The notes under the pieces were generated by a model, which ran no database searches, had not been told where the DNA came from, and was given only the letters and a program-made list of their open reading frames with translations. Shown in pieces: positions 587 to 32,169 of a stretch of DNA of 64,000 nt. The number at the start of each line of letters is the position of its first letter. Position 1 is the first letter of the stretch. The stretch is from Actinomycetota bacterium (GTDB taxonomy: Bacteria > Actinomycetota > Actinomycetes > Mycobacteriales > Mycobacteriaceae): NCBI GenBank assembly GCA_018268465.1, contig JAFDWN010000007.1:310478-374477 (forward strand). Direction: 5' to 3'. A program made the position numbers and the translations under genes.

Positions 587-1347
587 GGATTCGGAGATGC
601 GGAGATATCGCGGCAACCGTGTTGGCCATTGCCACAATCGGCGGACTTGCTGTCGTCTCACATCCTCACCCCACACCGACGGGCCCCGTGCCGACCGCTG
701 CTGAGCCCATCACGCGACCCGTAGCGCCGCCCCCGGGCCACCCTTCGGTCCTTCTCATCGGTGACTCTTATACCGGCGGGCCGAACGGATTACCCGAATT
801 GTCCTACGGCTGCCAGGCCGCGTCGGCAATGGGCTGGTTGTGTCACCTCTCGGCGGTTCCCGGTACGGGCTACATCAGCGGCGGACCGGCCAACAGATTC
901 ATCGTCGACGAGTACATCGGATCCTCGACCTCGTTCTCCGAACGGGTTCCCCGGCTCTCGGCACAGTATCAACCCGACATCGTCATCCTTGACGGCGGCC
1001 GCAACGACGAGTTCCCGCCGCGCGATGACGTCTACAAGGCGATGGCGGCGACCATCGGGCAAGTCCGGCACGCCTGGCCGACTGCTCGGATCGTCTTCAT
1101 CAGACCCCGGTTCCTCGACGACCCCCGCGACGATCTCGGATTCGACGACGCCTTCATGGGACGGCTGTCGAAAGATCCGGGCGCTGCCGGCTTGACCATC
1201 CTCGATCCCGTCGGGGGTTTTGTCGACGACAACACCTCGCAGTGGTTGCTGGCCGACGGTGTACATCCGAATCTATTGGGAGATAAGAAGATAGCGATCG
1301 CTTTAGTTGACGCACTGGAGAGCCATGGATTCGCCGCGACGATGTGA
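583..1347 (+). CDS. Membrane-anchored SGNH/GDSL hydrolase
   Basis: 254 aa. Residues about 9-25 are a hydrophobic anchor, followed by a Pro/Thr-rich linker to about residue 53 and then an SGNH hydrolase domain outside the membrane. The catalytic blocks are complete: GDSY with Ser62, GGRND with Asn141, and DGVHP with Asp225 and His228. Probable role is an esterase or acyl-transfer step on the extracytoplasmic polysaccharide (inference from context). The start at 583 was chosen because it overlaps the upstream stop as ATGA and puts the anchor at the N-terminus. It is the active-looking partner of the degenerate SGNH protein just upstream. Confidence 0.8.
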   Translation: MRIRRCGDIAATVLAIATIGGLAVVSHPHPTPTGPVPTAAEPITRPVAPPPGHPSVLLIGDSYTGGPNGLPELSYGCQAASAMGWLCHLSAVPGTGYISGGPANRFIVDEYIGSSTSFSERVPRLSAQYQPDIVILDGGRNDEFPPRDDVYKAMAATIGQVRHAWPTARIVFIRPRFLDDPRDDLGFDDAFMGRLSKDPGAAGLTILDPVGGFVDDNTSQWLLADGVHPNLLGDKKIAIALVDALESHGFAATM

Positions 1348-2056
1348 GCGGCTCGGCGTGAACGATGCGCTGGTCGAGTACTGGACCGTCCTGCGCGGCC
1401 GGTGGCGATGGCTCGCATGGGGTGTCCTCCTCGCGGTGTCGGCGACGACCCTCTGGCTCATCGTGCAGCCGCCGTTGTATCGCTCTGACGCCACCGTGTT
1501 CATCCGCACTCCCGGCGACGTGAGCCGCGTGATCGACGGCGGGGACTCCTACGCCCGAGCACGGGCGCAGACCTACGCCGTGCTGGCCAACAGTCCAGGG
1601 GTGGCAGCGCGCGTCGCCGCCGATATGGGGCTGGCTCTCGACCCGCAGACCCTGGCCGGCCGGATTCAAGCCGCTGTCCCGCACAACACCGCGCTGATCG
1701 AGATCTCCGTACGTGCAGCCTCCGGCGCGGAGGCACAGCGCGCCGCGACAGCGCTGATCACCGAACTCTCGGCCACGATGGGCGCGCTGGAGTCGGTGCC
1801 GGGCTCTGTCGTTCCGCGCGCCGAACTCATCACGGTTGATCCTCCGGGAGCTCCGGCACGCGTGGTGGCCTTCGGAGCGCCGGTGCCGCTCGTACTGCTC
1901 GTCGCCGCACTCGCGGGGTTGGTGCTCGGCGCACTGGCCGCGGTGCTGAGGTCGGTGTTCGAGCCCCCTCAGCCGGATTCCGCCGACATCCGCCAACTCC
2001 TCGCGTCCGCTGACCAAAGCGCCGCGGACGAATGCCAGCCGGCGGACGACCGATGA
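1325..2056 (+). CDS. Wzz-type chain-length determinant / polysaccharide co-polymerase
   Basis: 243 aa with the two-helix PCP layout. One membrane segment lies at about residues 29-46, an extracytoplasmic domain follows, and a second membrane segment lies at about 180-205 before a short acidic cytoplasmic tail. There is no kinase domain. Such proteins set the modal length of Wzx/Wzy-dependent polymers. The ATG at 1325 has a GGAGAG just upstream and overlaps the end of the preceding gene; a GTG at 1358 would also give a normal PCP N-terminus. It is the first of three Wzz-like genes in a row. Confidence 0.7.
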   Translation: MDSPRRCERLGVNDALVEYWTVLRGRWRWLAWGVLLAVSATTLWLIVQPPLYRSDATVFIRTPGDVSRVIDGGDSYARARAQTYAVLANSPGVAARVAADMGLALDPQTLAGRIQAAVPHNTALIEISVRAASGAEAQRAATALITELSATMGALESVPGSVVPRAELITVDPPGAPARVVAFGAPVPLVLLVAALAGLVLGALAAVLRSVFEPPQPDSADIRQLLASADQSAADECQPADDR

Positions 2057-2097
2057 CTAAAACGGTCACTTCCCGTGTGAATTTGGAGGACGAGGAC

Positions 2098-2160
2098 ATG
2101 ATCACGACTGATGGCCACAGCAGGCTGTCGTCGCGGCAGACGATTGCAGGTGCCAAGTGA
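2098..2160 (+). CDS. Possible 20-codon leader ORF coupled to the next wzz-like gene
   Basis: An ATG at 2098 follows a strong GGAGGA ribosome binding site at about 2085-2090 and opens a 20-codon frame. Its TGA overlaps the GTG start at 2157 of the following wzz-like gene (GTGA). The downstream GTG has a weaker site of its own, so ribosomes may be delivered by reading this small ORF. No family is recognised for the peptide. It could equally be the relic of a longer N-terminus. Confidence 0.4.
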   Translation: MITTDGHSRLSSRQTIAGAK

Positions 2161-3485
2161 AGCTCATCGGATTCCTCGCCGTCGCGCGGCGATACTGGGT
2201 GACGTTCGCCGTCGTCGCCATCGGCGTGACCGGCCTGGGTGTCGGATGGCTGGTGCTCACACCACCGACGTACGTGTCGACCGCACAACTACTGGTCTCG
2301 ATCTCAGGGTCGACGACAGCTGCCGCCTATGAGAACGACCAGGTCGTCGCCGGCCGCGTCAACTCCTATATCGCGTTGCTCACCAGCGACGCTGTCAGTC
2401 AACGTGTCGTCGATCGCCTCCGATTACCCATGGGCCCAACACAATTTGCGACGAAGGTGAGTGCGACGAATGTCCCACCGCGGACTGCGGTGATCGACGT
2501 CGCAGTGACCGACGAGTCGCCGCTGCGAGCCCGGTTGCTGGCCGACACCGTCGCCACGGAGTTCGTCAGCTATACCAACGCCCTGGAAACCCCGACCGGT
2601 CAGGACGGACAGAAGGTCCGCACAACGGTCGTGAGCCCCGCCACCGAACCCCAGGAGCGCCGCAGCGAACGTATCGTACTCGGCGCACTGGCGGCGATCG
2701 TGGGGTTGCTGCTCGCCAGTGCGGCCGTATGGATCCGGTCGTTGACCGATCCCGTTGTGCGGACCGCCCGGGACGCGAGGTCGGCCGGTGTGACGGTGCT
2801 CGGTTCGGTGACAGGTGCGCAGGTGATATCGCTCGCCGAACTCGAGCATTACCGTCGACTGCGGACCCGCGTCCGAGAGATGGTCCTACCGGGCCGCGGA
2901 CAGGTAGTCGAGATCGTCCCCGTCGACACCAGCCTCGACAGTGCCGTCGTCGCTGGTCACCTCGGACGGAGCATGATGCTGGCGGGGGGGCGTGCCGTCG
3001 TGCTCGACGCCGCCTCGGCGAGACCCCCATTTGCCAGCGCCGACGATCCATCGGACCTCGCCGGTCCCGCTGACCACGAGGACAGCACGGCTGCCTCCGC
3101 GATGCCCGAAGCAGGCGAGGATGGGAATCCCGACGTGGTCCTTGTCGGCGCATGGTGGGACGACACCGAAGCGGTCACCATGAGCGGCGTCACGGACCTC
3201 GTCGCGCGCCTGCGCCAGCAGTACCAGCACTTCCTCATAGCCGCTCCGCCCGACACGGTTTCTCCCGTCGCATCGGTGCTCACCGAGTTCGCCTCGGCGG
3301 TCCTTCTGGCGGTAACCCCGGGTACGACGAAGCGGCGCGATCTCCGCCGTGCGGCGGAGAATCTGCGGGCGTCAGGCGCCCAGCTGAGTGGAGCTGTCCT
3401 CGTACGGAAACCACCCGACGGTAACGATATTGGTAGCTGCACTATCAATCGCGAAGCTGCCACGACGTCGAGCATCGGACAGTAA
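2157..3485 (+). CDS. Wzz-domain protein with degenerate BY-kinase-like cytoplasmic domain
   Basis: 442 aa. Membrane segments lie at about 13-35 and 172-195 and flank a Wzz-type extracytoplasmic domain. The 250-residue cytoplasmic region lines up with bacterial tyrosine (BY) kinases fused to Wzz, but the Walker A loop is lost. Where GxxGxGKS/T is expected the sequence is VDTSLDSAVV, and the Walker A' LLVDAD counterpart reads VVLDAA. No C-terminal tyrosine cluster is present. It is therefore a probable ATP-independent co-polymerase or regulator of chain length. The GTG start overlaps a small upstream ORF. Confidence 0.7.
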   Translation: MKLIGFLAVARRYWVTFAVVAIGVTGLGVGWLVLTPPTYVSTAQLLVSISGSTTAAAYENDQVVAGRVNSYIALLTSDAVSQRVVDRLRLPMGPTQFATKVSATNVPPRTAVIDVAVTDESPLRARLLADTVATEFVSYTNALETPTGQDGQKVRTTVVSPATEPQERRSERIVLGALAAIVGLLLASAAVWIRSLTDPVVRTARDARSAGVTVLGSVTGAQVISLAELEHYRRLRTRVREMVLPGRGQVVEIVPVDTSLDSAVVAGHLGRSMMLAGGRAVVLDAASARPPFASADDPSDLAGPADHEDSTAASAMPEAGEDGNPDVVLVGAWWDDTEAVTMSGVTDLVARLRQQYQHFLIAAPPDTVSPVASVLTEFASAVLLAVTPGTTKRRDLRRAAENLRASGAQLSGAVLVRKPPDGNDIGSCTINREAATTSSIGQ

Positions 3486-3581: not shown

Positions 3582-4361
3582 GTGGACTTATTCGACGTAG
3601 TGCGATCTTGCCTTCGCCGCTGGTACGTCGCACTACCGCTGCTGCTGATCGCCGCCTGGTTCAGCTATTCGGCGTACACATCGGCAAAGCCCGTCTACTA
3701 CTCGAGCGCGGTGGTCGGGCTGGCGCCACCGAGCACCCGGGTGGACCAAACGGCCCCTGGTGCCGAGGTCCGGCGCAATGGCCTTCTGGACATCGGAGGG
3801 GCATCACTCATTGCGAACATCGCCGCATGGGGACTGCACGATCCGGCGGTGGTCGATCGAGTAGTCGCGGCGGGCGGCAGATCAGATTACGTCGCCAGGA
3901 TGTTCCCCGTACCCACCACCATGCCGCAGCTGCCGCTGATCATGATCGAAGCGACAGAAGCCACCCCGGAGGACGCGACCAACACCGTCAATCTCGTTAT
4001 CGCTCAGGCGGAGCCCACGTTGCGGACCCTGCAACAGCAGGCACGAGTCCCCGACGACCAGATGGTCGAACTTTTTGTAGTGTCTCCGACAAGCGCGCCC
4101 GCGGAAGCGATGCCGAGCAGGACACGCTCCACGATTGCGATATTCCTTGCCGGAGCGGGCCTGTCGGTCCTGGTGACGGTACTTGCTGACGTGTTCCTGG
4201 TACGCCGCAGGGCGCGGATCGAGAAGCGGCACGAAGAACAAGCCGCAACCGCTGAGGCCGGTTCGGGCCCTCCCGGACCGGAGGACGGTACCCACCCCGC
4301 CGATATCGACGGGCACGACGGGCGCGCCCCCGCCGCTGAGGGTTTGCTGGGCAGCAGATGA
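3582..4361 (+). CDS. Wzz-like two-pass membrane protein
   Basis: 259 aa. A short cytoplasmic N-terminus precedes a membrane segment at about 14-33, an extracytoplasmic region of roughly 140 residues, and a second membrane segment at about 184-206. A charged, Ala/Glu/Gly/Pro-rich cytoplasmic tail follows. The layout is that of chain-length determinant (PCP) proteins, though the sequence is divergent. The GTG at 3582 is the likely start. It ends in an ATGA overlap with the Wzy-like fusion gene, consistent with one operon in which several PCP-like proteins serve one polymerase. Confidence 0.6.
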   Translation: MDLFDVVRSCLRRWYVALPLLLIAAWFSYSAYTSAKPVYYSSAVVGLAPPSTRVDQTAPGAEVRRNGLLDIGGASLIANIAAWGLHDPAVVDRVVAAGGRSDYVARMFPVPTTMPQLPLIMIEATEATPEDATNTVNLVIAQAEPTLRTLQQQARVPDDQMVELFVVSPTSAPAEAMPSRTRSTIAIFLAGAGLSVLVTVLADVFLVRRRARIEKRHEEQAATAEAGSGPPGPEDGTHPADIDGHDGRAPAAEGLLGSR

Positions 4362-7300
4362 CGACGGCCGAGCCTGCCTCCGTCGCACCGGGAACGGGAC
4401 GCCCGGACGGCGACGCCGGCGGGACGGGACGCCGTGAGCGCATCCCGTGGCTGTTCGCGCTGATGTGCCTACTGATCGGGCTACTTCCCGGTAACGCCGT
4501 GCCGGCGGGGCCGCTCAAGAGCAATGGCTCCCCTACGCTACTGATCGCACTCGCGCTGTTCGGCGTGTGCCTGCTCGGATTCCTCACGTTCCGACGTACT
4601 GCATCCTGGGCGATTCGTCCCGTGGTGCTGATGATCTTGTTGTACTTCCTGCTCAATCTCATCGTGCTCGGGGTGGGCCTCACGCATTTCGACAGCGCCC
4701 TGGTCGAGGCGAACAAGACTCGAGCAGCCATTTGGCTGTGCGCGAGTGTCGGCATCGTGCTCTATGCCGCGACCCGGATCGAGACGGAACGCCAGCGTGC
4801 CATCGTGCTCGGCAGCCTGCTGGTGGGTCTCACCTTCAGCTGTTTCGTCGCGGTCCTGCAGAACGCCACCAAGATCGACCTTCATCTGCTCTTCCAGCCA
4901 CCCGGGTTCGTCGTCAACACCGCCGATCAGGGCCGCGGAGCCGAGACGACCCTCGCGGAGCGTTTCGGCAGTCTCCGGGCGTTCGGAACCGCGATCTCAC
5001 CCATCGAGCTGTCGGTGATGGCGGCCGCGACGGTGCCACTCGCCATTCACTTCGCGCGGTTCGGGTCCCGGCGGGAAGTGCGGTGGCTGGCATGGCTCGC
5101 GTGTGGCGTGGCCATGCTCGCAATTCCCGCGTCGGTATCTCGCAGCGGCGCACTGGCACTCGTCGTGGCTCTGATGGTCGGGATGTGGGCCTTCACAATC
5201 CGCCATCTCGTCACCGGTGTCGCGATCGGAGCGCTCGGCCTCGTCGTCGTCCTGATCGTCTTCCCCAGCAACACCCAGGCGTTGTGGAAGGCGATCGTCA
5301 CGGCGCAGGACGACGCGAGCATCACGGATCGGACCAGCGACTACGTCAGGGTCTCCCAGACTTTTCACCAGTTCCCGCTGTTCGGGATGGGTCTGGGCGG
5401 TTCACCCCCATCGGTATACGGATTCCTGGACAACGAATGGCTCCAGGCCCTCGTACAGGGCGGCATCGTCGGCATCGTAGCGATGACTCTGCTCGCAGCT
5501 TGTGGAGTCCTCGGAGTCTCGGCGGCATTGCGCAGTGCCCGTACTGGCAGCGAGCGGAGCCAGGCGTACACGATGGGAGCGATGTTCGTCGGAATCCTCG
5601 CCTCCAGCTTCACTTTCGACCTGTTCAGCTTCCGGCAGGCGGCGTTGATCTTCTTCATTCTGATCGGGCTGCTCTGGTCACGGTTCGAAGTTCCCATGCC
5701 GCCAGCGCCGAAACGCCGCCCGCGCCGACTCCGAGCCGCTGCACCGCGGCGCCTGTCGGCGGGCACACTGCTGGCGCTGACGCTGGCGCCGGTGCTCGTC
5801 TGCGTGTCGTGCACGACGCCCGCGCCCGCGCAGCAGTTCGACTCCGCGGAGCAGCGGCTCTGGCCGAACGATACGGTGCCCGCGATACCCGACGGTGGCG
5901 ACGGGCGACCGATCGAGGTCGGCACCAAATTCATGACCACCAGCGATGGCGTCATCACGGCGTTTCGGTTCTACCAGGGTCCGAACAGCACCGGCGCCAC
6001 AACAGCCACATTGTGGTCGTCGGAGGGCATCAAACTCGCGTCGGTGCCGATTCCCGAGGGACCTGCCGGCTGGCGAGAGATACCGTTTGTCAAACCCGTT
6101 GAAGTCAACGGGGACAACACGTACGTCATCTCCTATCACGCATCGACAGGCCGGTATTCTTCCGACCCCGACACGTTCTCGTGGGGCAAGACCGTCAGCT
6201 CCGGATGGCTGCAGGCACTCGACGGCGTGTTCTCATACGGTGACGGCTTCCCCGATCAACTCACCAACGGCACGAACTACTACGTCGACGTGGTGTTTCG
6301 CTCCAAAGGCCCGACGCTGCGCGAAGTCGATGGCGGTGAGGACTATTTCGATGCATTCACGAACTCCTTCCCGACGACGCCGGAATTCTTCCCTCTCGGC
6401 GTTTGGTTCACGAATACCAAACTCCCCGAAGAGATCTCCGCCGACCAAGCTCTGGGGATCAATACCTACGTAATGCTCACGGCCGACAGCGACGTCGCGC
6501 TCATCCAGCAGAGCGGCATGCACGCGATCACCGACACCACAAATCCGCAGTCGGTGGGCCAGCTGCTCGCGGACGAGGCCGACATGTGGGCGGGCGCAGG
6601 AGACGCCGCGTGGACGGGCCAGATGCCGCCCAACCCGGTTTGCATTCCCGCGGAGGCCAAATGCGGCTTCACCGTGATGATGGACCATCGTGGACGCGTG
6701 CCCCCGGGGGTACTCGCTTACGCGAACTACGGCAAGGGAGTGACCTTCTGGCAGACCCGCGAACAGGCCGAACGATTTGTCAACGACTTCCAGAATCTCG
6801 TGTCTGCCGACAACTACTGGTTCACCGACGCGGCCATCTGCCGAGCCGGCGAAGGCGGCGCGCTGAAGAACAACGGACAGGCTCCGCTGCCCCCCGCCGA
6901 GTGCCAGCTCGCGGCAAACTACGGACTGACGACCCGCTACGTACGATCACTGGTTCATCCCCGCGCGGCAACGCCCGTCTGGAATTTCGTCGAACTCGGA
7001 CATCCCTTCCCCGATGGGGAGGGCACGTTGATCACCGGTCCGCAGATCCGGGCTGCGGTGTGGAGCAGCATCATCAACGGTGCGCGCGGCATCATCTACT
7101 TCGTCCACAGTTTCGGTGGTCCGTGCCAGTCGTACAACGTTCTCCGCGACCCGTGTGGCGACGCCATCCGCACGGATCTGGCGGGAGTGAACGCCCAGAT
7201 CCGCCGACTCGCGCCGATCTTGAACGCACCGTTCGTAGACGGCTACGCCCACGCGAACGGGCCGGTCGATATCGCCGTCAAACATCACGATGGCAGCACC

Positions 7301-7501
7301 TACATCTTCGCCGGCACGACCGTCAACGCACCGTCGGAGGCAACGATCACCGTATCCTGCGGCGCCGCCAGCATTGTCGAGGTCATCGACGAGGGGCGGA
7401 CACTACCGATCACGAATCGAGCGTTCCGCGACTTCTTCGCCGACGGCAACGCCGTACATCTCTACAAGATCACCGGAAACGATGGCTGCGGCCTCGACTG
7501 A
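4358..7501 (+). CDS. Wzy-like polymerase/O-antigen ligase fused to DUF4082 and glycosidase-like domains
   Basis: 1047 aa. Residues about 30-445 form a polytopic region with roughly ten or more helices and the large loop typical of O-antigen polymerases and ligases. After a basic linker, a further hydrophobic segment (about 464-485, ending near a Cys) leads to an extracytoplasmic part. Residues about 500-645 match the DUF4082 beta-sandwich. Residues about 650-1047 look like a TIM-barrel glycosidase with a C-terminal beta domain, judged from the motif pattern only. The polymerase would join lipid-linked repeats outside the membrane; the fused part may bind or trim the product. The start overlaps the upstream stop (ATGA). 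I know of no standard family with this architecture. Confidence 0.75.
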   Translation: MTTAEPASVAPGTGRPDGDAGGTGRRERIPWLFALMCLLIGLLPGNAVPAGPLKSNGSPTLLIALALFGVCLLGFLTFRRTASWAIRPVVLMILLYFLLNLIVLGVGLTHFDSALVEANKTRAAIWLCASVGIVLYAATRIETERQRAIVLGSLLVGLTFSCFVAVLQNATKIDLHLLFQPPGFVVNTADQGRGAETTLAERFGSLRAFGTAISPIELSVMAAATVPLAIHFARFGSRREVRWLAWLACGVAMLAIPASVSRSGALALVVALMVGMWAFTIRHLVTGVAIGALGLVVVLIVFPSNTQALWKAIVTAQDDASITDRTSDYVRVSQTFHQFPLFGMGLGGSPPSVYGFLDNEWLQALVQGGIVGIVAMTLLAACGVLGVSAALRSARTGSERSQAYTMGAMFVGILASSFTFDLFSFRQAALIFFILIGLLWSRFEVPMPPAPKRRPRRLRAAAPRRLSAGTLLALTLAPVLVCVSCTTPAPAQQFDSAEQRLWPNDTVPAIPDGGDGRPIEVGTKFMTTSDGVITAFRFYQGPNSTGATTATLWSSEGIKLASVPIPEGPAGWREIPFVKPVEVNGDNTYVISYHASTGRYSSDPDTFSWGKTVSSGWLQALDGVFSYGDGFPDQLTNGTNYYVDVVFRSKGPTLREVDGGEDYFDAFTNSFPTTPEFFPLGVWFTNTKLPEEISADQALGINTYVMLTADSDVALIQQSGMHAITDTTNPQSVGQLLADEADMWAGAGDAAWTGQMPPNPVCIPAEAKCGFTVMMDHRGRVPPGVLAYANYGKGVTFWQTREQAERFVNDFQNLVSADNYWFTDAAICRAGEGGALKNNGQAPLPPAECQLAANYGLTTRYVRSLVHPRAATPVWNFVELGHPFPDGEGTLITGPQIRAAVWSSIINGARGIIYFVHSFGGPCQSYNVLRDPCGDAIRTDLAGVNAQIRRLAPILNAPFVDGYAHANGPVDIAVKHHDGSTYIFAGTTVNAPSEATITVSCGAASIVEVIDEGRTLPITNRAFRDFFADGNAVHLYKITGNDGCGLD

Positions 7502-7552: not shown

Positions 7553-8467
7553 ATGGCTGATCCCGATAACCCAGCTCCCAACTCCCGGGCAGCAATGGTG
7601 GTGGTGACTCCCACCTATGCGCCAGACCTGGAACTGTTCACCGATCTGCACCAATCGGTACTGCGGTGGTTCCCCAACGACGTCCGTCACGTCGCCGTCG
7701 TCAACGACCGCGACATGGACCTATTCCGCGTCTTCGAGGGGCCTCGATGCACAGTCCTCGGGGTAAGCGAGGTATTGCCCCGCTCGGTGGTACCACTGCC
7801 CCGCACGAAGCTGTGGCTCAACCTGCGCCGGCCCGTTCCACCACTGCGGGGCTGGATACTCCAGCAGATCATCAAACTCGCTGTGGTGCAGACCCTCCCG
7901 GAGCGCGTGATTGTCGCGGCGGATTCGGACCTCGTGTTTTTCCGCCCGGTCACCGTCGAGACATTCGCTCCCGCCGGCCGGGCACGCCTCTATCGCCTCG
8001 ATGACGGTGTCGGGGAATCCCTTCCGCGCCACCTGCGCTGGCACTCCGCGGCACACAGATTGCTCGGCCTGCCGCCGCCACCGTCCCCACCACTACCCGA
8101 CTATGTAAGTTCGCTCAACACCTGGGACGGTGACGTGGTGCGCAGAATGATCCGGCGCGTGGAAGAGGTGACAGGGCTCCCCTGGATACACGCAGTGGGC
8201 AAAGAACTGCACATCTCGGAATGGACCCTCTACGGCGTCTACGCCGACCAGTTCGAACAGGCGGGTTCGGTGACACTCACGCCCGAATCGCTGTGCCATT
8301 CCTATTGGGACACTGCGCCTCTCGGGGCCGATGACGCCACCTCCTGGCTGTCAACGGCAGGGCCCCCTGATGTTGCCTACATGATCTCGGCCAAGTCGGG
8401 CACACCGCAAGAGACACGACGCAACGCCCATGCAGCGGCCTTCGATCGGCGACAACCTGCCGAGTGA
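7553..8467 (+). CDS. DUF6492 family glycosyltransferase-like protein
   Basis: 304 aa. The N-terminus (VVVTPTYAPDLELF) and a DSD motif near residues 123-125 resemble a GT-A fold nucleotide-sugar transferase, in which DxD binds the metal and sugar nucleotide. The overall pattern fits DUF6492 proteins, which are common in actinobacterial polysaccharide loci. Acceptor and donor cannot be read from the sequence. It lies 51 bp after the Wzy fusion and is probably the last gene of this operon. The next gene is convergent and ends only 3 bp away. Confidence 0.65.
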   Translation: MADPDNPAPNSRAAMVVVTPTYAPDLELFTDLHQSVLRWFPNDVRHVAVVNDRDMDLFRVFEGPRCTVLGVSEVLPRSVVPLPRTKLWLNLRRPVPPLRGWILQQIIKLAVVQTLPERVIVAADSDLVFFRPVTVETFAPAGRARLYRLDDGVGESLPRHLRWHSAAHRLLGLPPPPSPPLPDYVSSLNTWDGDVVRRMIRRVEEVTGLPWIHAVGKELHISEWTLYGVYADQFEQAGSVTLTPESLCHSYWDTAPLGADDATSWLSTAGPPDVAYMISAKSGTPQETRRNAHAAAFDRRQPAE

Positions 8468-8470
8468 TTG

Positions 8471-9466
8471 TCACGAAGCCCCGGCGTGGCTTGGCGGTTC
8501 GTGGCTGGCACGATCATGGGCAACCCGCTTAAGCCAGATCTCCCGCCAGAACGGATAGATCCTTCGCGGACAGAAGATCCGCTCGGGGTGCAGATTTCCC
8601 ATGCATGCAACATCTTCCAGAACGAACGCCGGGGTCCGCATGGCCATCATAACGCCGGTCCGCTCGTTGATGATGCGTTCGATACGCTGCTTCACGCGAT
8701 AGCGCTTGCCGCAGAACGGCAGCATCTCCGTGTCGAACGCCATCCCGCGATTCCTGCCGGCCGAGTCGAGCGTAGTCATGATCTCCGCGGGGGTTTTCAC
8801 CTCGACCATGTCGCCCACCTGCAGGTCGAGGGTGTCGTTGGGCGTCTTGCCAGTCGCCAGACCCTTGATGGTTCCGTGCGGGATCATCAAGTCGTACCGT
8901 CCGACCTTGCGCACTGCCGCGTTCCGTATGGCCAGCAGCATGTACCGAGTGAATGTCCACGCCGACACGTTCCCCGACACGACGTCGATCCAGTATTGAC
9001 GCAGATGGCGACGTCTCATCGGCGAACTGGCCTCAACGAACCTCGTCGCCTGACACGAGTACACGACTTCCCCTGTCGCCGTGCGGGATTCCCTGCCATG
9101 CGTCGCCCGGTCAAGTACCGCCATGTCGTCGTCCTGGGTCGGTGGCACCGGTCGGGGAGCCGGACCGCTCGCGGGCTTAAGCCAGTCCTCCTTCCAGTAC
9201 AGCAGGCACGACGCCTGGCAGCCGCCGTGCGCGGACCCGTCACAGCGGACGCCAAGGTGCACCGCGCGGTCGATCTTTCGATTGCGGTAGGTTTCTATGG
9301 TGTCGCAGCCCTTGTGCGCTGAAGCCGAGACCTGAAGACGCCTCCCAGCGAACCGCGCCATCTCCGGCATGAAGGGCATGTTGTCCACTGCGGCGTCCGC
9401 GTCAAGCGTCCGCAGGACCTCGCCCAAGCTAAGAACCTCTACCCAGTCGCCCACTCGATGAGTCAT
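8471..9466 (-). CDS. Uncharacterised protein with an internally duplicated Cys-containing domain
   Basis: 331 aa, no membrane segments. Two related halves are visible. Each begins with VGDxVEV, continues with E(V/I)xxTLD, MxF and EM, then G(R/K)(R/Y)xxV, and ends in an aromatic-Trp motif before WLK (about residues 5-100 and 215-312). The first half ends with three Cys in a CxxxxxxxCxxxC arrangement; the second keeps only two of these Cys. The intervening 110 residues look helical. The start at 9466 has GGAGG in front of it and removes a low-quality extension. I do not recognise a named family. Its place between glycosyltransferase genes suggests a role in the polysaccharide. Confidence 0.6.
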   Translation of the reverse strand: MTHRVGDWVEVLSLGEVLRTLDADAAVDNMPFMPEMARFAGRRLQVSASAHKGCDTIETYRNRKIDRAVHLGVRCDGSAHGGCQASCLLYWKEDWLKPASGPAPRPVPPTQDDDMAVLDRATHGRESRTATGEVVYSCQATRFVEASSPMRRRHLRQYWIDVVSGNVSAWTFTRYMLLAIRNAAVRKVGRYDLMIPHGTIKGLATGKTPNDTLDLQVGDMVEVKTPAEIMTTLDSAGRNRGMAFDTEMLPFCGKRYRVKQRIERIINERTGVMMAMRTPAFVLEDVACMGNLHPERIFCPRRIYPFWREIWLKRVAHDRASHEPPSHAGAS

Positions 9467-9724
9467 GGGCCCTCCGATCACGTTCCGCGGCGGAAGCCGA
9501 CCGCAGTCCCCACGGCACCCGCCCAGGCGGACATCCACGGCAAACCAAATCGTACACAGCCAAGCTGGCAGTTCGCTGTCAAGAATGCCGCGGGGGACGC
9601 GGTAGTCAGACTCGACCAGCAAAGCTCGCGGTGGTACCGTCACCGCGCCGCGGGCGATGGCACCAATAACGTGTCTGGACCGTCCCGCCCCGAGATGGTG
9701 ATTTCAGCAAAGCACGGCGAACGG

Positions 9725-12340
9725 TTACGTGCGCACTCTGCTCGTCTCGTCGCGTTCCCAGCGTGGATGGTCGCCCACCTGCCTGCGCGCGGCCAGCGCC
9801 ATCGCCAGATACACCGCCGCGTCCGCGGCAGATCGCGGTCCGCGGACACCCCGGACGACCGCGAACGCGGTGCGCGCCCCCGTATTCTGGCCATGCCGGT
9901 GCCCGGCATCATCACCGCGCAGTTCGATACCGCCCCGATACGCGCGACGCAGGATCTTCACCAGGCTTCCGACGTTCGCCGGGGTTTTGACCACCGATGG
10001 TTCGGTGGGCACCACCGTCTTCTCGTCGGCGTGAAAGAGACTGTCCACGTATAGGTCGTCACCGGTGAGAGCGGGAAATGTGCCGAGGCGATGGTGCCCC
10101 TCAGAACTGAGGCCGTAGGCCCCCGCACCCCACATCGCCCGTTTGTGCTGCGGGATCCGCTGGCGCGCACGGTAGTAACTGCGGACCACTGCGTCCGCAC
10201 CGCTGCAGTCGTAGGTATGGTCGGGGCGCGCCGCTAGGACATCTCCCTGCCCGAGCCGGTCGAGAACGGCCACCACCGCAGATGCTGTGATTTGAATGTC
10301 TGCGTCGAGGTACAGGCGCGGCCACAAGGTGGCAGCCTCATCCCCGGCGTTGAGCGCCGCCGGTTTAGAACCGTGCTGCAGCTCCACCACGCTGACGCCC
10401 GGCACAGCCCGGGCAATCGCGGCAGTGTCATCGGTACAACCGTTGCACACCACGATCAATTCGATGTACCCGTCGGCGGCGGCTTCGCTGAGCGGCTCAA
10501 GTGTCCTGCGGATCACCGCCGCCTCGTTGCACGCGGGCACGATCACCGATCCTCGTGCGCGCTGGCCGGACAGTTCTTGTCGTGCCTCCGGTTTGGATAT
10601 CCGGGGCAGCTCCTGCCAGCGTCGCTTGTTAACCACGACGGACATGCTGTAGCGGTGCGCGACGTCGTAGGACCGCAAGGACTCGCCCAGCGCCACCACC
10701 GCGCGGAAAAGCGCCGCGTACACCCGGCTGTGATACCGCTCGACATAGCGCACACGATTGACTGCCATCAGCGCAGCGAGCCCCACGGACGCCCCCGAGC
10801 CGCCGCCGCGGTGCCTCACCACGGCAGCGGGTTCGAATCGAATCCTTCTGCCGGTTTCGCGAATTCGCCGGAAGTAGTCGGTCTCCTCCGAGTAGATGGG
10901 ATAGTCGTCCCACCAGTCGCCCACCTCCCGGACAACGGAGGCCGGCATCATCAGGGCAGCGCCCGTTGCCCAATCGACGTCGTGCGCGCTGAGATAGCTC
11001 GAGGATCGCATCTCGACTTCCGACGTGAAACTTGGCCGGACACTGATCCTGTCGCCGAGCAGCGCGTCGCCGAGCGCTCGGATGAGTGACGGTTCTCTGC
11101 GCAGGGAGGGATACGTCGCGCCGTCCTCTTCGACCATCAACGGCACGACTGCCCCGATCGTCCCGTCCACTAACGCGCTATGCATCAGCCCGATGGACCC
11201 CTGGTCCACTCTGAGGTCGGGATTGAGCATCACCACCGCGTTGCAGTCTCCGACGGCTTGCAACCCTGCATTAAGACCGCCGCCGTACCCCAGATTGCCC
11301 TCCGACTCGATGAGAACGACGTCGCCGTGCTCCCGTACCCGGTCGACAGTCTCGTCCGCGGACTGGTTGTCCACAACGATCAGCCGGAGGGCCATACCGT
11401 GTGCGGCAACCCGCAGATCGTCGATCAGCGTGGCGATGTCGGACGCGCTGTTGTAGGTGACAACCACCGCCGCCACGTCGGCGTGGACCTCCCTGGCGGC
11501 GAACTTCCCACGGTCCAGGCCAGAATCGGGCGGAGCGACCCCGCGCACCACCTTCGCACTCCGTCTCAATTGCACCAGAGAAGGCGGGCCGTGAATCAGG
11601 TAGCGCCGGCCGAGTCGGCGTGGTTCGAGCATGAGCCGCCATGCCCACTCGGCTCCCGCGTCGGCGACTCGTTGCGGCGCCCTGCGCACCCTACCCGCGA
11701 GGAAGTCCACGACGGCCCCGAACGCCAGCAATACTCGCGCACCGGTGGCGACACCGAACCGCGCAATCCACTGCTCTTGAAGCGGTTTACCAAGGGCCAC
11801 AACGAGTATTTCGACACCCGCGGCATGAATCTCGGCCGCGATTCGCCTGGAGGCGGCGGGGTCGGTCAGTTCCGATCGGGCCGGTGCCCACGTACCCGCG
11901 ATACGCAGCGACGGCATCGTATCGGCAAGGCGTGCACGCAACTCGCGGTGAGTCAGGGACGCACCACCGAGGAATCCCACCTTCGCACCCACATCGGCCG
12001 CGGACTCGAGAAGGGTGACGATGAGATCGCTGCCCGAGAGCTTCGGCCAGTCACGGCCGCTTCGCGCATTCGCCGTCCGCACCAGCGGTACACCGTCGAG
12101 CAGGGTCAGCCAGCGCAGCCCTTCGGCCGCTCCTTCCGATGGGAGGGCCGGCGCTCGCCGAGCCCACGACTCGTCATGGGCGAAGTGATGGATGTGGTCG
12201 AGATTGGCCGATACGACGGCGAGCGGGTCTGCTTCCGAGAGCGAGCCGAGGACCAGCGCTACAGCGTGGTCCCTGTCGACCAAATCCACGGCTACGGCGC
12301 CGACCGTCATCCGCGGCCATGGTGTCACTTCGGCGTTCAT
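9725..12340 (-). CDS. Three-module glycosyltransferase fusion (GT26-GT2-GT2)
   Basis: 871 aa. Residues about 10-270 match the WecG/TagA/CpsF (GT26) family, with DGVPLV in the position of the catalytic DG motif and GKPLQEQW near the C-terminal signature. Residues about 290-560 are a GT2 module resembling rhamnosyltransferases (VVVTYNS start, NPDL for the DxD region, EETDY). Residues about 595-800 are a second GT2 module (VIVPACNEAAVI start, DAD motif). One polypeptide could therefore add three successive sugars. The start at 12340 is the Met nearest the GT26 domain; upstream in-frame codons lack homology. Separate genes are the usual arrangement. Confidence 0.75.
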   Translation of the reverse strand: MNAEVTPWPRMTVGAVAVDLVDRDHAVALVLGSLSEADPLAVVSANLDHIHHFAHDESWARRAPALPSEGAAEGLRWLTLLDGVPLVRTANARSGRDWPKLSGSDLIVTLLESAADVGAKVGFLGGASLTHRELRARLADTMPSLRIAGTWAPARSELTDPAASRRIAAEIHAAGVEILVVALGKPLQEQWIARFGVATGARVLLAFGAVVDFLAGRVRRAPQRVADAGAEWAWRLMLEPRRLGRRYLIHGPPSLVQLRRSAKVVRGVAPPDSGLDRGKFAAREVHADVAAVVVTYNSASDIATLIDDLRVAAHGMALRLIVVDNQSADETVDRVREHGDVVLIESEGNLGYGGGLNAGLQAVGDCNAVVMLNPDLRVDQGSIGLMHSALVDGTIGAVVPLMVEEDGATYPSLRREPSLIRALGDALLGDRISVRPSFTSEVEMRSSSYLSAHDVDWATGAALMMPASVVREVGDWWDDYPIYSEETDYFRRIRETGRRIRFEPAAVVRHRGGGSGASVGLAALMAVNRVRYVERYHSRVYAALFRAVVALGESLRSYDVAHRYSMSVVVNKRRWQELPRISKPEARQELSGQRARGSVIVPACNEAAVIRRTLEPLSEAAADGYIELIVVCNGCTDDTAAIARAVPGVSVVELQHGSKPAALNAGDEAATLWPRLYLDADIQITASAVVAVLDRLGQGDVLAARPDHTYDCSGADAVVRSYYRARQRIPQHKRAMWGAGAYGLSSEGHHRLGTFPALTGDDLYVDSLFHADEKTVVPTEPSVVKTPANVGSLVKILRRAYRGGIELRGDDAGHRHGQNTGARTAFAVVRGVRGPRSAADAAVYLAMALAARRQVGDHPRWERDETSRVRT

Positions 12341-12435
12341 CAGGCCCGGCAGACCTCCACATTCGATCTGAGTTTGCCGACCAGCAAATCCTCGCATATG
12401 GCGGGACCGGTGCGGCCTCGTTCGCGAGCCCCAGC

Positions 12436-13077
12436 TCACCGAATCGCGATCATGGACTTCGGCACTCCGGCTATGCGTTCCCATTCGATCCGCGCGTCGG
12501 GAAAGTACCTGCGCATTTCGGATGCACTCAGCAGGTCGGTGAACATGACCTCATCACGTGCACGCTCGGGCGGCCAGCCGTAGGTGTGTCCGAGCGGCCA
12601 ACGGGGAGCCAGCCAGCCCCGTGTCGCCATGGGCAGAAACTGCATCCCCGGGAACAACCAATGGGGTTCCACCGGAAAGTAGCGGTACGGCGTCTGCACC
12701 GCGTAGCGCGGAGCGAGCGCCCGGACCGCATCCGCGAACCGAGTTCTGGGTGCGTGACCTCCGAGGTGTTCGATCAGGCTGTTCGAGAAGACGAGATCAA
12801 ATCGTCGGCCTGCGACCAGTTCTGGCGCGTCACAGGCGTCGCCCTGAATCGGAGTGAGCCAGTCCAGTCCGTCACCGGGCTCGAGTAGATTGATCACCGT
12901 CACGGACTTCGGCCGGATCGGTGCCCGCGTCCACCAGACCGTCGTACCTCCCAGATCCAACACGTGCATTCGGGCGAGCTCCGGGAACTCCCCCGCAAGG
13001 CGTTGCCACCGGCGCAGCCGCAGGCGCTCTGCCAACGAGCCATCGGTGCCGACAAGTCGGCTCCTCAGATTGGTCAT
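12436..13077 (-). CDS. Class I SAM-dependent methyltransferase
   Basis: 213 aa. A Rossmann-type SAM domain is recognised by VLDLGGTTVWW in the motif I position (a loosened GxGxG) and by FDLVFSNSLIEHLG in motifs IV-V, where class I enzymes bear SNxxEH. The start at 13077 follows a GGGGAG ribosome binding site and excludes a non-homologous extension. It lies 95 bp upstream of the glycosyltransferase fusion in the same direction, so it probably methylates a sugar of the same polymer (inference). It is divergent from fcl, with about 207 bp of promoter DNA between them. Confidence 0.7.
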   Translation of the reverse strand: MTNLRSRLVGTDGSLAERLRLRRWQRLAGEFPELARMHVLDLGGTTVWWTRAPIRPKSVTVINLLEPGDGLDWLTPIQGDACDAPELVAGRRFDLVFSNSLIEHLGGHAPRTRFADAVRALAPRYAVQTPYRYFPVEPHWLFPGMQFLPMATRGWLAPRWPLGHTYGWPPERARDEVMFTDLLSASEMRRYFPDARIEWERIAGVPKSMIAIR

Positions 13078-16791: not shown

Positions 16792-17715
16792 TCATGCCAC
16801 GTTCAGCGGACACCACGAGTTGTCCCACACCAACGACTGGCGCACGTGACTGCCCAGTTCCCGATATCTCGCTCGACGAACCGCCCCGGTAGCGAGCTGT
16901 GTCCGCACGAGCTTCTTGGCGACCGCAATGATCCACTGCCTCCAAGCTTTTGACCGGATGTCCGGGTCGAGATGCGGATCGTGGGCCAGCCCCGCCAGGA
17001 TCCACGGCCTGTCCAGCCACGACTCATCAGTCTCCTCGTACTGAGCCGACAGACTTGCGTCGTGCTGAACCCGGACCGATAGCTCCTCGTCGACCCACGC
17101 CGCATTCGACCGGGCGAGTACGCGCAACCACAGTTCCATGTCGCTGTAACTGCGCTGGCGGGGGTCGAAACCGCCGACGGCGGCGAGCAACGATCGGCGC
17201 ACCATCACGGAGGTCGGCTCACCGATCCAGTTCCCACGGGAACCACCGCGGACGTACTTCCGCACAATCTCCATGCCCGCGTTGATGTTCCCGAGCGGTT
17301 CGAGCGGCGTGTGCAGCGTGCCGATCAACGCAGCCCACTTGGGATCTTCGGATTCGATCCGGCGCCGTGCGAAAGCCAGACCCACGCCGGGATCCTCGAA
17401 CGTCGGGACCAGTCGGCTCAGGCAGTCGGGCAGCAGCCAGTCGTCGCCGTGTAGGAACTGGATCAGCTCGCCGGTGGCTTCCCGGATGCAACGGTTCTCG
17501 TTGGCCACCACGCCGACGTTGACTGTATTGCGCAGCACGCGGATCCGGGAGTCGCCGAACGCGATCGCGCGTTCGAATGTCGAGTCGGTGGAGGCGTTGT
17601 CGATGACGAGACACTCGAAATCGCCGTACGACTGCTGCATCGCGCTCGTCAGCGCCTTCTCGATGGTGGACGCGCTGTTGTAGACCGGGACGCAGATCGT
17701 CACTTTAGGAGTCAT
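16792..17715 (-). CDS. GT2 family glycosyltransferase
   Basis: 307 aa. An inverting GT-A transferase with the N-terminal ICVPVYNSASTIEKAL, LVIDNAST for nucleotide binding, and HGDDWLLP with the DxD-type acidic pair near residue 92. Later acidic residues (YSDMELW) fit the catalytic base region. Substrate cannot be read. The start at 17715 overlaps the stop of the flippase gene upstream (ATGA), so the two are translationally coupled. Confidence 0.8.
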   Translation of the reverse strand: MTPKVTICVPVYNSASTIEKALTSAMQQSYGDFECLVIDNASTDSTFERAIAFGDSRIRVLRNTVNVGVVANENRCIREATGELIQFLHGDDWLLPDCLSRLVPTFEDPGVGLAFARRRIESEDPKWAALIGTLHTPLEPLGNINAGMEIVRKYVRGGSRGNWIGEPTSVMVRRSLLAAVGGFDPRQRSYSDMELWLRVLARSNAAWVDEELSVRVQHDASLSAQYEETDESWLDRPWILAGLAHDPHLDPDIRSKAWRQWIIAVAKKLVRTQLATGAVRRARYRELGSHVRQSLVWDNSWCPLNVA

Positions 17716-19340
17716 CGCCACTCCCCATGATTCGCTGTCGTGCTGGATGTTTCAGCGGTCGGTACCTCGGAGTGGCCGCTGCCTGGCCGCAGGTACCCCA
17801 CCAGCAACTGCGGCCACGTCGTCGCTAACACGAGAAGGCGCTGATCGGCTACACGCCGCGGGAGATACTGCACGAGTGCGCGGCCGGCCACCGCGAGATA
17901 CACGATCGCACCGACCGCCAAGGCTACGAACAGCGTCACGATGGGCGAGCGGATCGGGTGGGTGACAACAAGTGCGCCGCCGGTGGCGGCCAGCGCGGCA
18001 ACGACCGGGCGAGATAGGGCACGCAGCGTCACCCCGATGCCAGACCCGGTGATTCTGTGGAGCGCAACCATATACGCGGGCATGGTCACACCCAGAACCA
18101 CCACGATATGCGCCACTCCCACACCGACGAGCCCGCGCATGTGGACTCCGACGATCATCGCCGGCACCAGCGCAACGAGCGCAGCGGCCTGCACGGCGAA
18201 CATTGTCGCCGTTCTTCCCGCCGCGATCATGATGTTGTCGAACAGAATTCCCAGGACATAGAGAACTCCGTACAGCGCGAGCACGCTGAGTACGGGTGCA
18301 GCCGCGATCCAACGACCGCCGTACACCGTTCCGATCAGCGGATACGCGTATGCGCACGTGAAGGCGGCGATCGGGCAAGCCACGAAAGCCACCGCCTGCA
18401 CGGCGCGCGAAAGTGCCTGGCGAAGGTCCCCTCCGTCCCTGTTCACCGCGGAGAATGCCGGTAATACGATCTGGTTGACGACCGCCCCGAACACCGCTGT
18501 GGGCCACGACGCGATGTTGAAGGCGAGCATGTACAGGCCGAGATCGACAGTGGACATCTCGCGACCAATGATGACGTAGTCGACGTTGAGGACGAACTGC
18601 GACAGCATCCAGCCGAGCGCCGCGGGCACCCCGAAGCGAAGCAGCGGCACGATGTACTCGGCACGCCAGCCTGGCCGATAGCGCTTGTCGAGTGCCAAAG
18701 TTATTGTCAGGCAGACGATCACATGCCCCACGACGCGTGACCAGGCGAAAGCCTCCGCCCCCGGGAGCACGAGTACGAGCAACAACAGGGTCGCATTGCT
18801 GCCAAAGAAAGCCATGACGTCACCGCGGAAGACGACGTCCTGACGAAACTGCCGCTGGTTCTGCCCGACGGGCACCGCGAAAATCCCCTGCAGCGCGACG
18901 ACGATAGCCAGGATCCGGATTGGCACCGTCGCTTCCGGCACCCCAAGCGCCGACGCGAGCGGACCGGCCAGCAGCGCCATCACGGCCGCCGTCGCACAAC
19001 CGCTGAGCGCCGAGAAGGTGGTCACCGTCGGCCCCAGCTTGTCGACATCGAGGTCCGAGCGCCCGATGGCGGCACCCACCCCCCAGACTCCGACGCACAC
19101 CACGAACCCGTAGACGGCGATGGCCAGTGCGAACACGCCCAACTCGGCGGGAGTGATGATGCGGGCCACCACAACCATCACCAGCACGCTGCTCAGGCGA
19201 AGCACGATCGCGCTGGCCCCAGTCCACAGCGCGCCGCGCCGGGCGCGGTGGGTCAGCGAGGCATCCTCGGACGTCCCGTCCGCCGTGTCCGCAGCCACGG
19301 TGGGGAGACCCGCGACATGGCCGGACGCCGTCACGCCCAT
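17712..19340 (-). CDS. Wzx-type polysaccharide flippase (MATE/MVF superfamily)
   Basis: 542 aa with about 12-14 hydrophobic helices between residues 35 and 510. The pattern is that of the oligosaccharide flippases: an N-terminal amphipathic stretch, a GALWTGAS start of helix 1, ARIITPAELGVFALA after helix 1, and GLYMLAF mid-protein. It would move lipid-linked repeat units across the membrane to the Wzy-like polymerase encoded at 4358-7501. The start at 19340 is the first Met with plausible spacing to GACGGG. It is the first gene of a leftward unit and faces a 502-bp intergenic region. Confidence 0.8.
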   Translation of the reverse strand: MGVTASGHVAGLPTVAADTADGTSEDASLTHRARRGALWTGASAIVLRLSSVLVMVVVARIITPAELGVFALAIAVYGFVVCVGVWGVGAAIGRSDLDVDKLGPTVTTFSALSGCATAAVMALLAGPLASALGVPEATVPIRILAIVVALQGIFAVPVGQNQRQFRQDVVFRGDVMAFFGSNATLLLLVLVLPGAEAFAWSRVVGHVIVCLTITLALDKRYRPGWRAEYIVPLLRFGVPAALGWMLSQFVLNVDYVIIGREMSTVDLGLYMLAFNIASWPTAVFGAVVNQIVLPAFSAVNRDGGDLRQALSRAVQAVAFVACPIAAFTCAYAYPLIGTVYGGRWIAAAPVLSVLALYGVLYVLGILFDNIMIAAGRTATMFAVQAAALVALVPAMIVGVHMRGLVGVGVAHIVVVLGVTMPAYMVALHRITGSGIGVTLRALSRPVVAALAATGGALVVTHPIRSPIVTLFVALAVGAIVYLAVAGRALVQYLPRRVADQRLLVLATTWPQLLVGYLRPGSGHSEVPTAETSSTTANHGEWR

Positions 19341-19842
19341 GGGCCCGTCACCGCCGCCGGTCGGGTGTAGCCGGGACGGCGTGTGCCACGCTCCCAAGAT
19401 CTGACAACCATGTGATCCGGCCTCCCTCGCGCAGACCTCCGCGCGTCAACCCGTTCGGCCCCCGAGACAGAACCGGCATTGCCTTCCAGCACCCCGCGTC
19501 GGTATGGTAGCTGAGGATACAGCAAAATTTGCTGACTCTCGTCTTTTCTCGACAGACACAGGCCAGCGGGCGCAGGCTGGCGAGGGGGCACGTGACGCGA
19601 TGGCCAATCAGCGAGTGCACCGGACGTCGCCGATGGAGCTGCGTAAAAGCCTGCTCCAACCACACGACAACCGACACGCGTTGCCCTGCCCCTCGCGGCG
19701 GACACACTACGGAAGGCCGGCGCGCCCAGCGACACCCAATGTGGCTACCTCATTCGCTGAAACTGCGTGCTCGTGTGAATTTTTTCTCGGCCCACCGCCA
19801 GCGGACCGACGGGTTGCCCGCTTCGCGACAGGATGAGGGAGC
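19341..19842. promoter_or_regulatory. Divergent intergenic region with a 15-bp palindrome
   Basis: Space between the leftward flippase operon and the rightward StrF-like gene. It contains a near-symmetric element at 19520-19534, arms CAGCAAA and TTTGCTG around a single A, in an AT-richer patch. This could be an operator or part of a promoter. The 3' end carries GAGGGAG just before the ATG at 19843. No coding gene is supported here. Confidence 0.4.
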
Positions 19843-30017: not shown

Positions 30018-31613
30018 TCAGTACGCGCCTTGACGCTGGAGCACAGCACCGAACGTCTTGGCGATGATGAGGATATCGCCGACCATCGACCAGTTGTCGA
30101 CATATGACAAGTCGAGGCGAACGGCTTCGTTCCACGACAGGTCGGACCGTCCGCTCACTTGCCACAGGCCGCTGATGCCCGGTTTGACGAGGAGTCTGCG
30201 CAACACCTCGCAGTCGTATGCCTCGACCTCCCGCCGCAGTGGCGGACGCGGGCCGACGACACTCATCTCATTACGCAGGACGTTGATGAATTGTGGCAAT
30301 TCGTCGATGCTGTAACGCCGCAGGAAGCGACCCAGCGGGGTAACCCGCGGATCGTCCTTGATCTTGAAAATGAGTCCGTCACTCTCGTTCGCGCTGAGGA
30401 GGCTGTCAAGCTGGCGGTCGGCGTCCTCCACCATCGTGCGGAATTTGAGCATGGCGAAGGGTTTGCCGTCGATGCCAATTCGCTCGGAGGAGTAGAGCAC
30501 CGGTCCCCGGCTGGTGAGTTTCACCGCGATCGCAGTGACCAGCAACACCGGGGACATCAGAACCAGGACGATCAGCGAGAAACAGAAGTCGAAGGCCCTC
30601 TTCTCGAATCGTTTCGAACCGCGGTACAACGGCTTCTCGATGTGCAGTAGCGGGAGTCCGGCGATGGGTCTCATGACCAGCCGTGAGAGCGCAACGTCCA
30701 TCGCCCCGGTGGACACCACGAGGTCCACCCCCATCGGCTCGAGATCCCATATGAGCCTGCGGATCCCGCGGACACCGAGACATTCGGTACTCGCGATGGC
30801 CACCGTGTCAGCCCCGCACTGACGGATGGCGGCCAGCATATTGGACTCACCGCCCATGATCGGCACGTCTTCGTCGCCGACGGCGATCTGCTCGCCTCGT
30901 GGGGGGCCGTACCCGGGTACTCCGATTCCGACCACCCGGTACCCGTCGCCCCGGCTGCGAGTCAGTTCGGCAGCGAGATCGATGACGGCGTGGCGCTCAC
31001 CGAATGCCAGTACCGCAGTCTGGCACCGGCCACGCGCACGCTTATGTGAAACCGAAGCGTGCCAAGCCCATCTGGTCAGGACCAGCCCGATTGTCCCGAC
31101 CGGCAGCGCGACCGCGAGATAGCCACGAGCGATATCCAGCTTCAGCAGCAGGGTGACGATCGCAATCGCGCCAAACGTACCGAACGATGCGGTGATGACT
31201 CGCCGGTACTCCTCGACTCCCGTCCCGATCAACCTCGGCGATCGGGTGTGGAATCCGGCGAGCGCGAATAGCCAGGCCAGGCTGAATGCGACGGAGAACG
31301 CGGGTACATAGTGTTCCGGGTACCCGGGCGGATTCAGCGTCGGGCCGAATCGTGCGCAATGAGCAAGCGCGACAGCTGCCGTGACCACCAGCAAGTCGGT
31401 CATACGTAGCTTGGCGGCGTAGCCGCGCTGCCAGTTCGACCGCTCGAACACCCCACGCGGCACATCGACGGCCGGGACCGTGGGTGCAGGTTCCACGCGA
31501 ATCTCGGTGATGCCCGGCCCCTCACCACGGTTTCGGCGGTCATCGCTGGCTTCGGACCGGACACGCACCCATCCGTTCCCATCCGTTGGATGGGATGTCG
31601 CGGGCGCGGTCAT
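30018..31613 (-). CDS. Undecaprenyl-phosphate sugar phosphotransferase (polyprenyl PGT, WbaP/WcaJ type)
   Basis: 531 aa. About five N-terminal membrane segments and a CoA-binding-like middle region precede the catalytic PGT domain (about residues 340-531). The core motifs are [11 protein letters not shown] at the re-entrant helix, [11 protein letters not shown], and [10 protein letters not shown] followed by VGPRPP. It transfers a sugar-1-phosphate from its nucleotide form to polyprenyl phosphate, starting each repeat unit. It is the first gene of the leftward operon, and a 556-bp AT-richer region lies upstream. The ATG at 31613 is preferred over the GTG three codons before. Confidence 0.88.
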
Positions 31614-32169
31614 CTGGTCCACGGCGTCACACCGTTCGGTCCGCCGGCTGCCCTGTGACTGGCCGATTCGACACAGTTGGCCCTCCCCGAGAACTACGAC
31701 ACCAAACGCGACTTGTGATTCGCAAAGATTTCACAGTTGTCTGCGTATCTCACCCGGCCAACCTCCGGGTCGAGTGACCGAACGCTATCACTCGGCAGAT
31801 CGCTCAACAAGCAACTTTCTTGAGCTCATTGCCATGTTTTTGATCGGTCAACAACTAGAATCACTAACGAGCCGCCGCTGCCGGTCTCTATTACTGTCTT
31901 GACATGCATATTGTCTTCGATATCGCGATCAGCTGCCTTGCCATCACGGCGACGGTTCGATCAGCAAACACAACATGTATATGCAAAGTTAGCAAATTTC
32001 TGTGTATCACCTGTGACGGGGGGAGACCACCACACCCATCATGAGCACCAGCAACAACTGAGCTCGCAGGACTCACTTATGGCAAATTACGACCGCGGCT
32101 TGCCTATCCAATCGGATCGGCCGTCCTTCCATCACGGATCTGCGGGTGACAACACCCGCCCGCCGGACC
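31614..32169. promoter_or_regulatory. AT-richer intergenic boundary between polysaccharide and sterol loci
   Basis: No gene is supported in this 556-bp gap. It separates the leftward phosphoglycosyl transferase start from the end of the leftward ltp2 operon. Base composition is visibly lower in GC than either side between about 31,780 and 32,000, as often seen for promoter or Lsr2-bound DNA. CACAGTTG occurs twice (about 31,672 and 31,732). A TTGACA lies at about 31,899. The right end holds the hairpin at 32142-32159. Confidence 0.45.
32142..32159 (-). terminator. Hairpin terminator candidate for the cyp125-ltp2 operon
   Basis: A perfect 7-bp stem, GCGGGTG and CACCCGC around a 4-nt loop, lies 10 nt beyond the ltp2 stop. 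It has no T-run, as is common for mycobacterial terminators. Confidence 0.6.

Follow-up and report, generated by a model that had tools for sequence, protein, structure and literature searches.

Why would a cell join, in one reading frame, an enzyme predicted to build a polysaccharide and an enzyme predicted to cut one? The question is raised by an open reading frame (ORF) in a stretch of 64,000 nucleotides, hereafter the window, from an Actinomycetota genome assembly (6.88 Mb, 72 contigs, 99.87% completeness, 5.86% contamination). Three PE-family matches over cut-off give a hint of a mycobacterium, but no more than a hint, since the E. coli control also gave matches. The frame runs from ATG to stop with zero internal stops, and the stop codon of its upstream neighbour overlaps its start (ATGA). 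A sequence-only reading had described a single 1047-aa chain with a Wzy-type half, a DUF4082 domain and a barrel-like C-terminus, and the Pfam matches and the structure model bear out this description, the order being Wzy, export segment, DUF4082, and GH-A-type barrel. The relevant features are the following:

1307..3485 (1307-2056; 2157-3485), + strand: two Wzz-type genes, the first at 24.1 bits, narrowly missing the cut-off of 25.5, and the second above it at 28.5 bits
3582..4361, + strand: 259-aa gene directly upstream of the fusion ORF, with no matched family in the Pfam/NCBIfam scan
4358..7501, + strand: whole fusion ORF, 1047 aa (ORF reading, Pfam domains)
4358..5686, + strand: predicted Wzy-type polymerase/ligase region, residues 1-443 (Wzy_C, hydropathy, alignment, profile match to 7tpg)
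5102-5482, + strand: Wzy_C match, residues 249-375 (Pfam PF04932, E 5.4e-14, 52.7 bits against a cut-off of 31.7)
5687..5812, + strand: junction and putative export segment, residues 444-485 (Arg-rich stretch, hydrophobic 466-484, Cys485)
5873..6286, + strand: DUF4082, residues 506-643 (Pfam PF13313, E 5.9e-36, 124 bits against a cut-off of 28.4; all-beta in the full-length model)
6311..7480, + strand: predicted glycosidase-type (beta/alpha)8 barrel and C-terminal beta domain, residues ~652-1041 (structure model, alignment)
6572..6577, + strand: D739-E740 codons, E740 being the proposed acid/base (61/61 rows; strand assignment from the model)
6992..6994, + strand: E879 codon, proposed nucleophile (61/61 rows; strand assignment from the model)
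17712..19397, - strand: flippase-type polysaccharide biosynthesis protein, Wzx-like (PF13440, E 6.5e-68)
30018..31622, - strand: bacterial sugar transferase, likely the initiating enzyme (PF02397, E 5.3e-67)

The Wzz-type genes, the flippase, the sugar transferase and the glycosyltransferases, several of which lie downstream in the window together with an acyltransferase, show that the locus has parts of a Wzy-dependent pathway, in which Wzy links lipid-linked repeat units at the outer face of the membrane. The window also encodes a 919-aa glycosyltransferase, which corresponds to two proteins, WecG-GT2 / GT2, in Rhodococcus sp. HM1 and R. zopfii and is divided at another point, as WecG / GT2-GT2, in R. 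aetherivorans; this comparison suggests that fusion is recurrent in such loci.

In the relatives of the window, the two halves of the 1047-aa protein are encoded separately. From 262 relatives scanned, 79 loci were kept, and the absence of the fusion applies to these 79/262: Wzy was found in none of their 88 barrel frames, and in 0/10 in the regions of a further genome set, which shares at least three genomes (L070, L119, and L124) with the first and is not independent of it. A fusion conserved among homologues, for which the sequence-only reading had proposed a survey, is thus not seen; of the two outcomes that it had named as speaking against itself, the first, separate genes in homologues together with a read-through or assembly fusion here, was found in its first half, and the second, a C-terminus lacking a glycosidase fold, was not found. 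In the closest relatives, Rhodococcus sp. HM1 (L049) and R. zopfii (L050), wzy and the DUF4082-hydrolase gene are adjacent in different frames: wzy ends with TAG, followed after four bases by a GTG one frame over, read as the probable start of the DUF4082-barrel gene, and the open frames share about 113 nt. This pair shares with the window its gene order, its modules and similar surrounding genes, including the 259-aa gene kept before wzy, at identities of 50-53% for wzy and 59% for the DUF4082-barrel part, but it consists of two genes with a stop between them in different frames, whereas the window has one frame. In R. aetherivorans, wzy and the hydrolase gene are about 7.9 kb apart. Domain fusion in long Nonomuraea Wzy frames was considered, but Wzy_C was the only Pfam match in the four scanned (714, 740, 730, and 1148 aa), and none of the 127 plasmid records with some match to the fusion protein spans 80% of it. 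Given the separate genes of the relatives, the fusion is therefore either derived or an artefact.

The barrel gene is linked to wzy well beyond these species. A Wzy-like frame is present in the fetched flank of 68/79 loci, on the same strand in 57 of the 68, and in ten loci the closest aligned parts are less than 300 nt apart (four in the order wzy-hydrolase, five in the order hydrolase-wzy on the same strand, and one on opposite strands). The fetched flanks of the other 11/79 loci contain no Wzy frame, several of these loci ending at contig ends. As a control, Wzy_C matches were counted and numbered only 1-5 per genome in 12/12 genomes, and in all 11 non-own genomes scanned one of these matches is no more than about 10.4 kb from the barrel gene. 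A barrel match is present in 14 non-own genomes, of which this count took 11, without G104, G171, and G309; in the G309 region a Wzy frame lies about 7.5 kb from the barrel gene, and in the G104 region there is none in 20 kb. Overall, chance proximity of the barrel gene and wzy is very unlikely. The two genes are widespread partners, and the window is so far the one case in which they are fused.

We think that the in-frame fusion is real and that it unites partner genes from an exopolysaccharide locus of the Wzy-dependent kind. The explanation that we prefer, and regard as somewhat probable, is that partner genes were fused and that an outward-facing hydrolase acts at the polymerase, cutting the polymer that the locus makes. 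After the last polymerase helix, the Arg-rich stretch would stay inside and residues 466-484 would cross the membrane, so that DUF4082 and the hydrolase would face outward, where Wzy elongates the lipid-linked polymer; the placing of the hydrolase outside, claimed earlier, would fit the sequence order of Wzy helices, export segment, and then DUF4082-barrel. DUF4082 would hold the glycan and the predicted retaining hydrolase, with E740 as acid/base and E879 as nucleophile, would cut the polymer at the polymerase, which could set the chain length, release the chain or clear a stalled chain, as proposed for PslG. Catalysis, substrate, and length control are in this respect what we infer for the hydrolase. 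The more specific proposition, that one membrane protein both polymerises and cuts the same chain and that length is set by a fixed distance between polymerase and hydrolase, is put forward tentatively and is in our view doubtful.

The mature form of the product depends on the segment between the halves. In a hydropathy scan over 19 residues, eleven peaks fall within 32-440 and a twelfth at 466-484, which is preceded by an Arg-rich stretch and followed by Cys485; an in-frame ATG is located at 5696-5698. The extra membrane segment of the sequence-only reading is thus present as a hydrophobic peak, but it looks like a lipoprotein-type export signal and not like another polymerase helix. The usual lipobox rule asks for a basic stretch, a hydrophobic core and a lipobox ending in Cys, and a Cys at -3 is outside it. 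The basic stretch and the hydrophobic core are present here, but there is a Cys at -3 (…VCVSC), and the segment is internal (444-485 of 1047) instead of being at the protein N-terminus as in a bacterial lipoprotein. Given the retained lipobox-like Cys485, cleavage of the chain may yield two proteins. The fusion would then be real but processed after membrane insertion, either before Cys485 or after the APA ending near residue 490, to give equal amounts of a Wzy and a lipoprotein hydrolase, each of the ordinary kind; such a reading overlaps with our preferred explanation, from which the mature product alone sets it apart. In its favour, S-C-T at 484-486 is common in the alignment to the window protein and three Rhodococcus proteins whose hydrolase is separate, lipobox-like signals (by a crude rule) precede 21/88 barrel frames, and the full-length model has pLDDT < 50 over 453-496, leaving the segment without confident structure in the polymerase. 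Conversely, the Cys at -3 misfits the lipobox rule in HM1 as in the window, and the titles and abstract openings of the literature provided no precedent for signal processing inside a multi-pass protein. Processing of this kind is a serious possibility, albeit one to which we give less than even weight.

The nature of the C-terminal region bears on what the hydrolase would do. DUF4082 is in the same frame as the barrel in 12/88 barrel frames and, in the single large protein of a neighbourhood that was scanned (L108), it lies beside Ig-like domains, company that fits a glycan-holding role without showing it; DUF4082 probably holds glycan. The barrel, modelled from a 61-row alignment, is a (beta/alpha)8 barrel with pLDDT 94.9 and pTM 0.94. 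The alignment (A2) covers 60/79 loci, the 19 omitted being mostly near-duplicates, with one overlong match (L112). In clan GH-A, one catalytic Glu follows strand 4 and the other stands at the end of strand 7. By DSSP on the model, with no measurement of coordinates, E740 lies four residues past barrel strand 4 and E879 is the last residue of strand 7, and both are invariant in 61/61 rows. The glycosidase fold with an acidic pair, for which a structure prediction had been suggested, is thus supported, and we are confident in predicting a clan GH-A-type barrel, in which E740 is the proposed acid/base and E879 the proposed nucleophile. These statements are based on the 61-row barrel model and not on the full-length model (mean pLDDT 75.8), in which the barrel is much less confident; the latter was built from alignment A4, comprising 36/46 rows without the 10 barrel-only rows, after a first full-length alignment (A3) had been dropped for placing Wzy rows onto the wrong half.

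Sequence libraries did not name the family of this barrel. Pfam and NCBIfam gave nothing usable for it, the last 400 residues being without Pfam match, and the C-terminal sequence had 0 matches at E <= 10 against solved structures. The only chain matched by the 61-row profile was named protein kinase (E 0.097), which we took as chance. GH42 (PF02449) was matched by one of the 61 members at E 0.015 and by none at E <= 0.001, the window member having no match at E <= 0.1, and GH39 is not among the three families that any of the 61 members matched at E <= 0.1. The best structural matches of the barrel model are glycosidases with middling scores and about 10% identity, among them a GH164 beta-mannosidase and GH42 beta-galactosidases (about 10-12% identity). 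The barrel could do another job, such as transglycosidase transfer to an acceptor, removal of side groups or recycling of the polymer, with no control of chain length. Such middling scores and identities name no substrate for these jobs either, and the linkage to wzy makes the polymer the likelier target without indicating which action takes place. We find this alternative rather unlikely.

The first half shows the features of the WaaL / Wzy_C polymerase-ligase family: besides the Wzy_C match, a 25-row Wzy profile matches the solved polymerase/ligase 7tpg (E 7.4e-5), and S261-R262 and D358-N359 are invariant in 25/25 rows. In contrast to this family, the window protein is extended at its C-terminus by two exported domains. 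When the full-length model was used for a fold search, the best 50 matches included low-TM barrel enzymes, of the alpha-amylase type and others, and the search is therefore uninformative on the fold of the Wzy half. Since PF04932 is named O-antigen ligase and 7tpg is annotated as polymerase/ligase, and since the genome has a second Wzy_C match elsewhere (C71), the first half might instead attach the finished polymer to an acceptor. Nevertheless, the flippase, the Wzz-type genes and the sugar transferase form the usual Wzy-dependent set, and the fusion ORF is the only Wzy_C match on its own contig. A ligase is improbable here, and the gene context leads us to predict a Wzy-type polymerase.

Finally, wzy and the hydrolase gene could really be separate, overlapping genes joined by an assembly indel. 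The fusion is confined to one assembly with the contamination given above, a single indel in the 113-nt overlap of the Rhodococcus frames could join them, and the codon scores over 5687-5760 are -6.3 in the fused frame against -1.2 and -3.1 in the other frames, although codon use at this junction is uninformative and only slightly against the fused frame. In contrast, 33/33 condensation/ketosynthase (NRPS/PKS-type) matches in the assembly are without internal stops (a check on stop-to-stop frames, in which some matches are weak), twelve different frames are longer than 1000 aa (the sum is about 92 kb, and one frame has 7642 aa), the R. zopfii hydrolase start with its GGAAGG and GTG is not recognisable at the aligned window junction, a poorly conserved stretch, the only stop of the other frames between 5670 and 5850 is at 5778, inside the export-signal coding, and the second fusion of the locus, the 919-aa glycosyltransferase, has an R. 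aetherivorans counterpart. We regard an assembly artefact as unlikely.

The sequence-only reading knew of no described enzyme with this layout, and no description of a Wzy plus glycoside hydrolase layout turned up in the titles and abstract openings of the literature. The nearest comparison is PslG of Pseudomonas aeruginosa, which we take to be a GH39 enzyme and which is presumably a separate protein, not fused to a polymerase and without DUF4082. Its identity to the window barrel is low and other structural matches score higher; similarity of fold to PslG and GH39 does not confer GH39 membership. According to one study, the activity and the inner-membrane association of PslG are important for Psl production and its authors propose that it controls polymer length, while citing an earlier study that saw no PslG role in synthesis; this text makes no mention of Wzy or PslJ (PMC6813494). 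For PslG it has been asked what a cluster for polysaccharide synthesis needs a hydrolase gene for, in a text with no mention of Wzy or Wzx (PMC9075953).

Gene fusions point to proteins working together. Together with the actinobacterial linkage, the present fusion ties a GH-A-type hydrolase family, unnamed by the sequence libraries used, to the Wzy polymerase, and this tie offers a handle on the PslG-type question of a hydrolase in a synthesis cluster. By analogy, the likely role of the hydrolase would be the trimming, release or remodelling of the nascent polymer at the polymerase. If this is true, the fusion suggests that the making and the trimming of the polymer are physically coupled in one chain.

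The gene that joins a Wzy part, an export segment, a DUF4082 domain and a glycosidase-type barrel in one frame is accompanied in the window by the following genes, identified by Pfam or domain searches except for the 390-aa ORF:

2-586, + strand: SGNH/GDSL hydrolase gene 1, start of the locus
559-1347, + strand: SGNH/GDSL hydrolase gene 2, start of the locus
7553-8467, + strand: DUF6492 protein (PF20102), immediately 3' of the fusion
8471-9643, - strand: 390-aa ORF
9725-12484, - strand: 919-aa protein with a WecG/TagA (GT26-type) and two GT2 domains

Relatives of both SGNH/GDSL hydrolase genes occupy the same place in Rhodococcus sp. HM1 and R. zopfii, the closest relatives, and relatives of the 390-aa ORF are also present in these loci. 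This ORF has no match in Pfam; its first and second parts match one and the same Rhodococcus region, which suggests an internal repeat. Locus comparison revealed no DUF6492 relative at either the R. zopfii or the HM1 locus. In Rhodococcoides trifolii (L071), such a relative is flanked on each side by a barrel gene (9806-11212 and 12321-13874). Two barrel frames are likewise found in L092, L098, L103, L105, L110, L113, and L127.

DUF4082 also occurs in large neighbouring proteins: in one of them (L108:13949-17860; domain search) it is present three times, together with Ig-like domains and a DMFA2_C domain. Many loci have comparable frames, about 1100-2080 aa long and carrying 2-4 copies of DUF4082, in the vicinity of wzy and the barrel genes.

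Elsewhere in the source's own genome, a second Wzy_C match lies within an 836-aa frame (G000:C71:3335-3781). PE-family matches over the cut-off were obtained on three contigs of this genome; oddly, the E. coli control genome was matched by the PE family too.

According to the locus comparison, the counterpart of the 919-aa protein is split into WecG-GT2 and GT2 in HM1 and R. zopfii, and is divided otherwise, into WecG and GT2-GT2, in R. aetherivorans. The WecG/TagA-GT2-GT2 protein is thus another gene fusion within the locus that carries the Wzy-barrel fusion.
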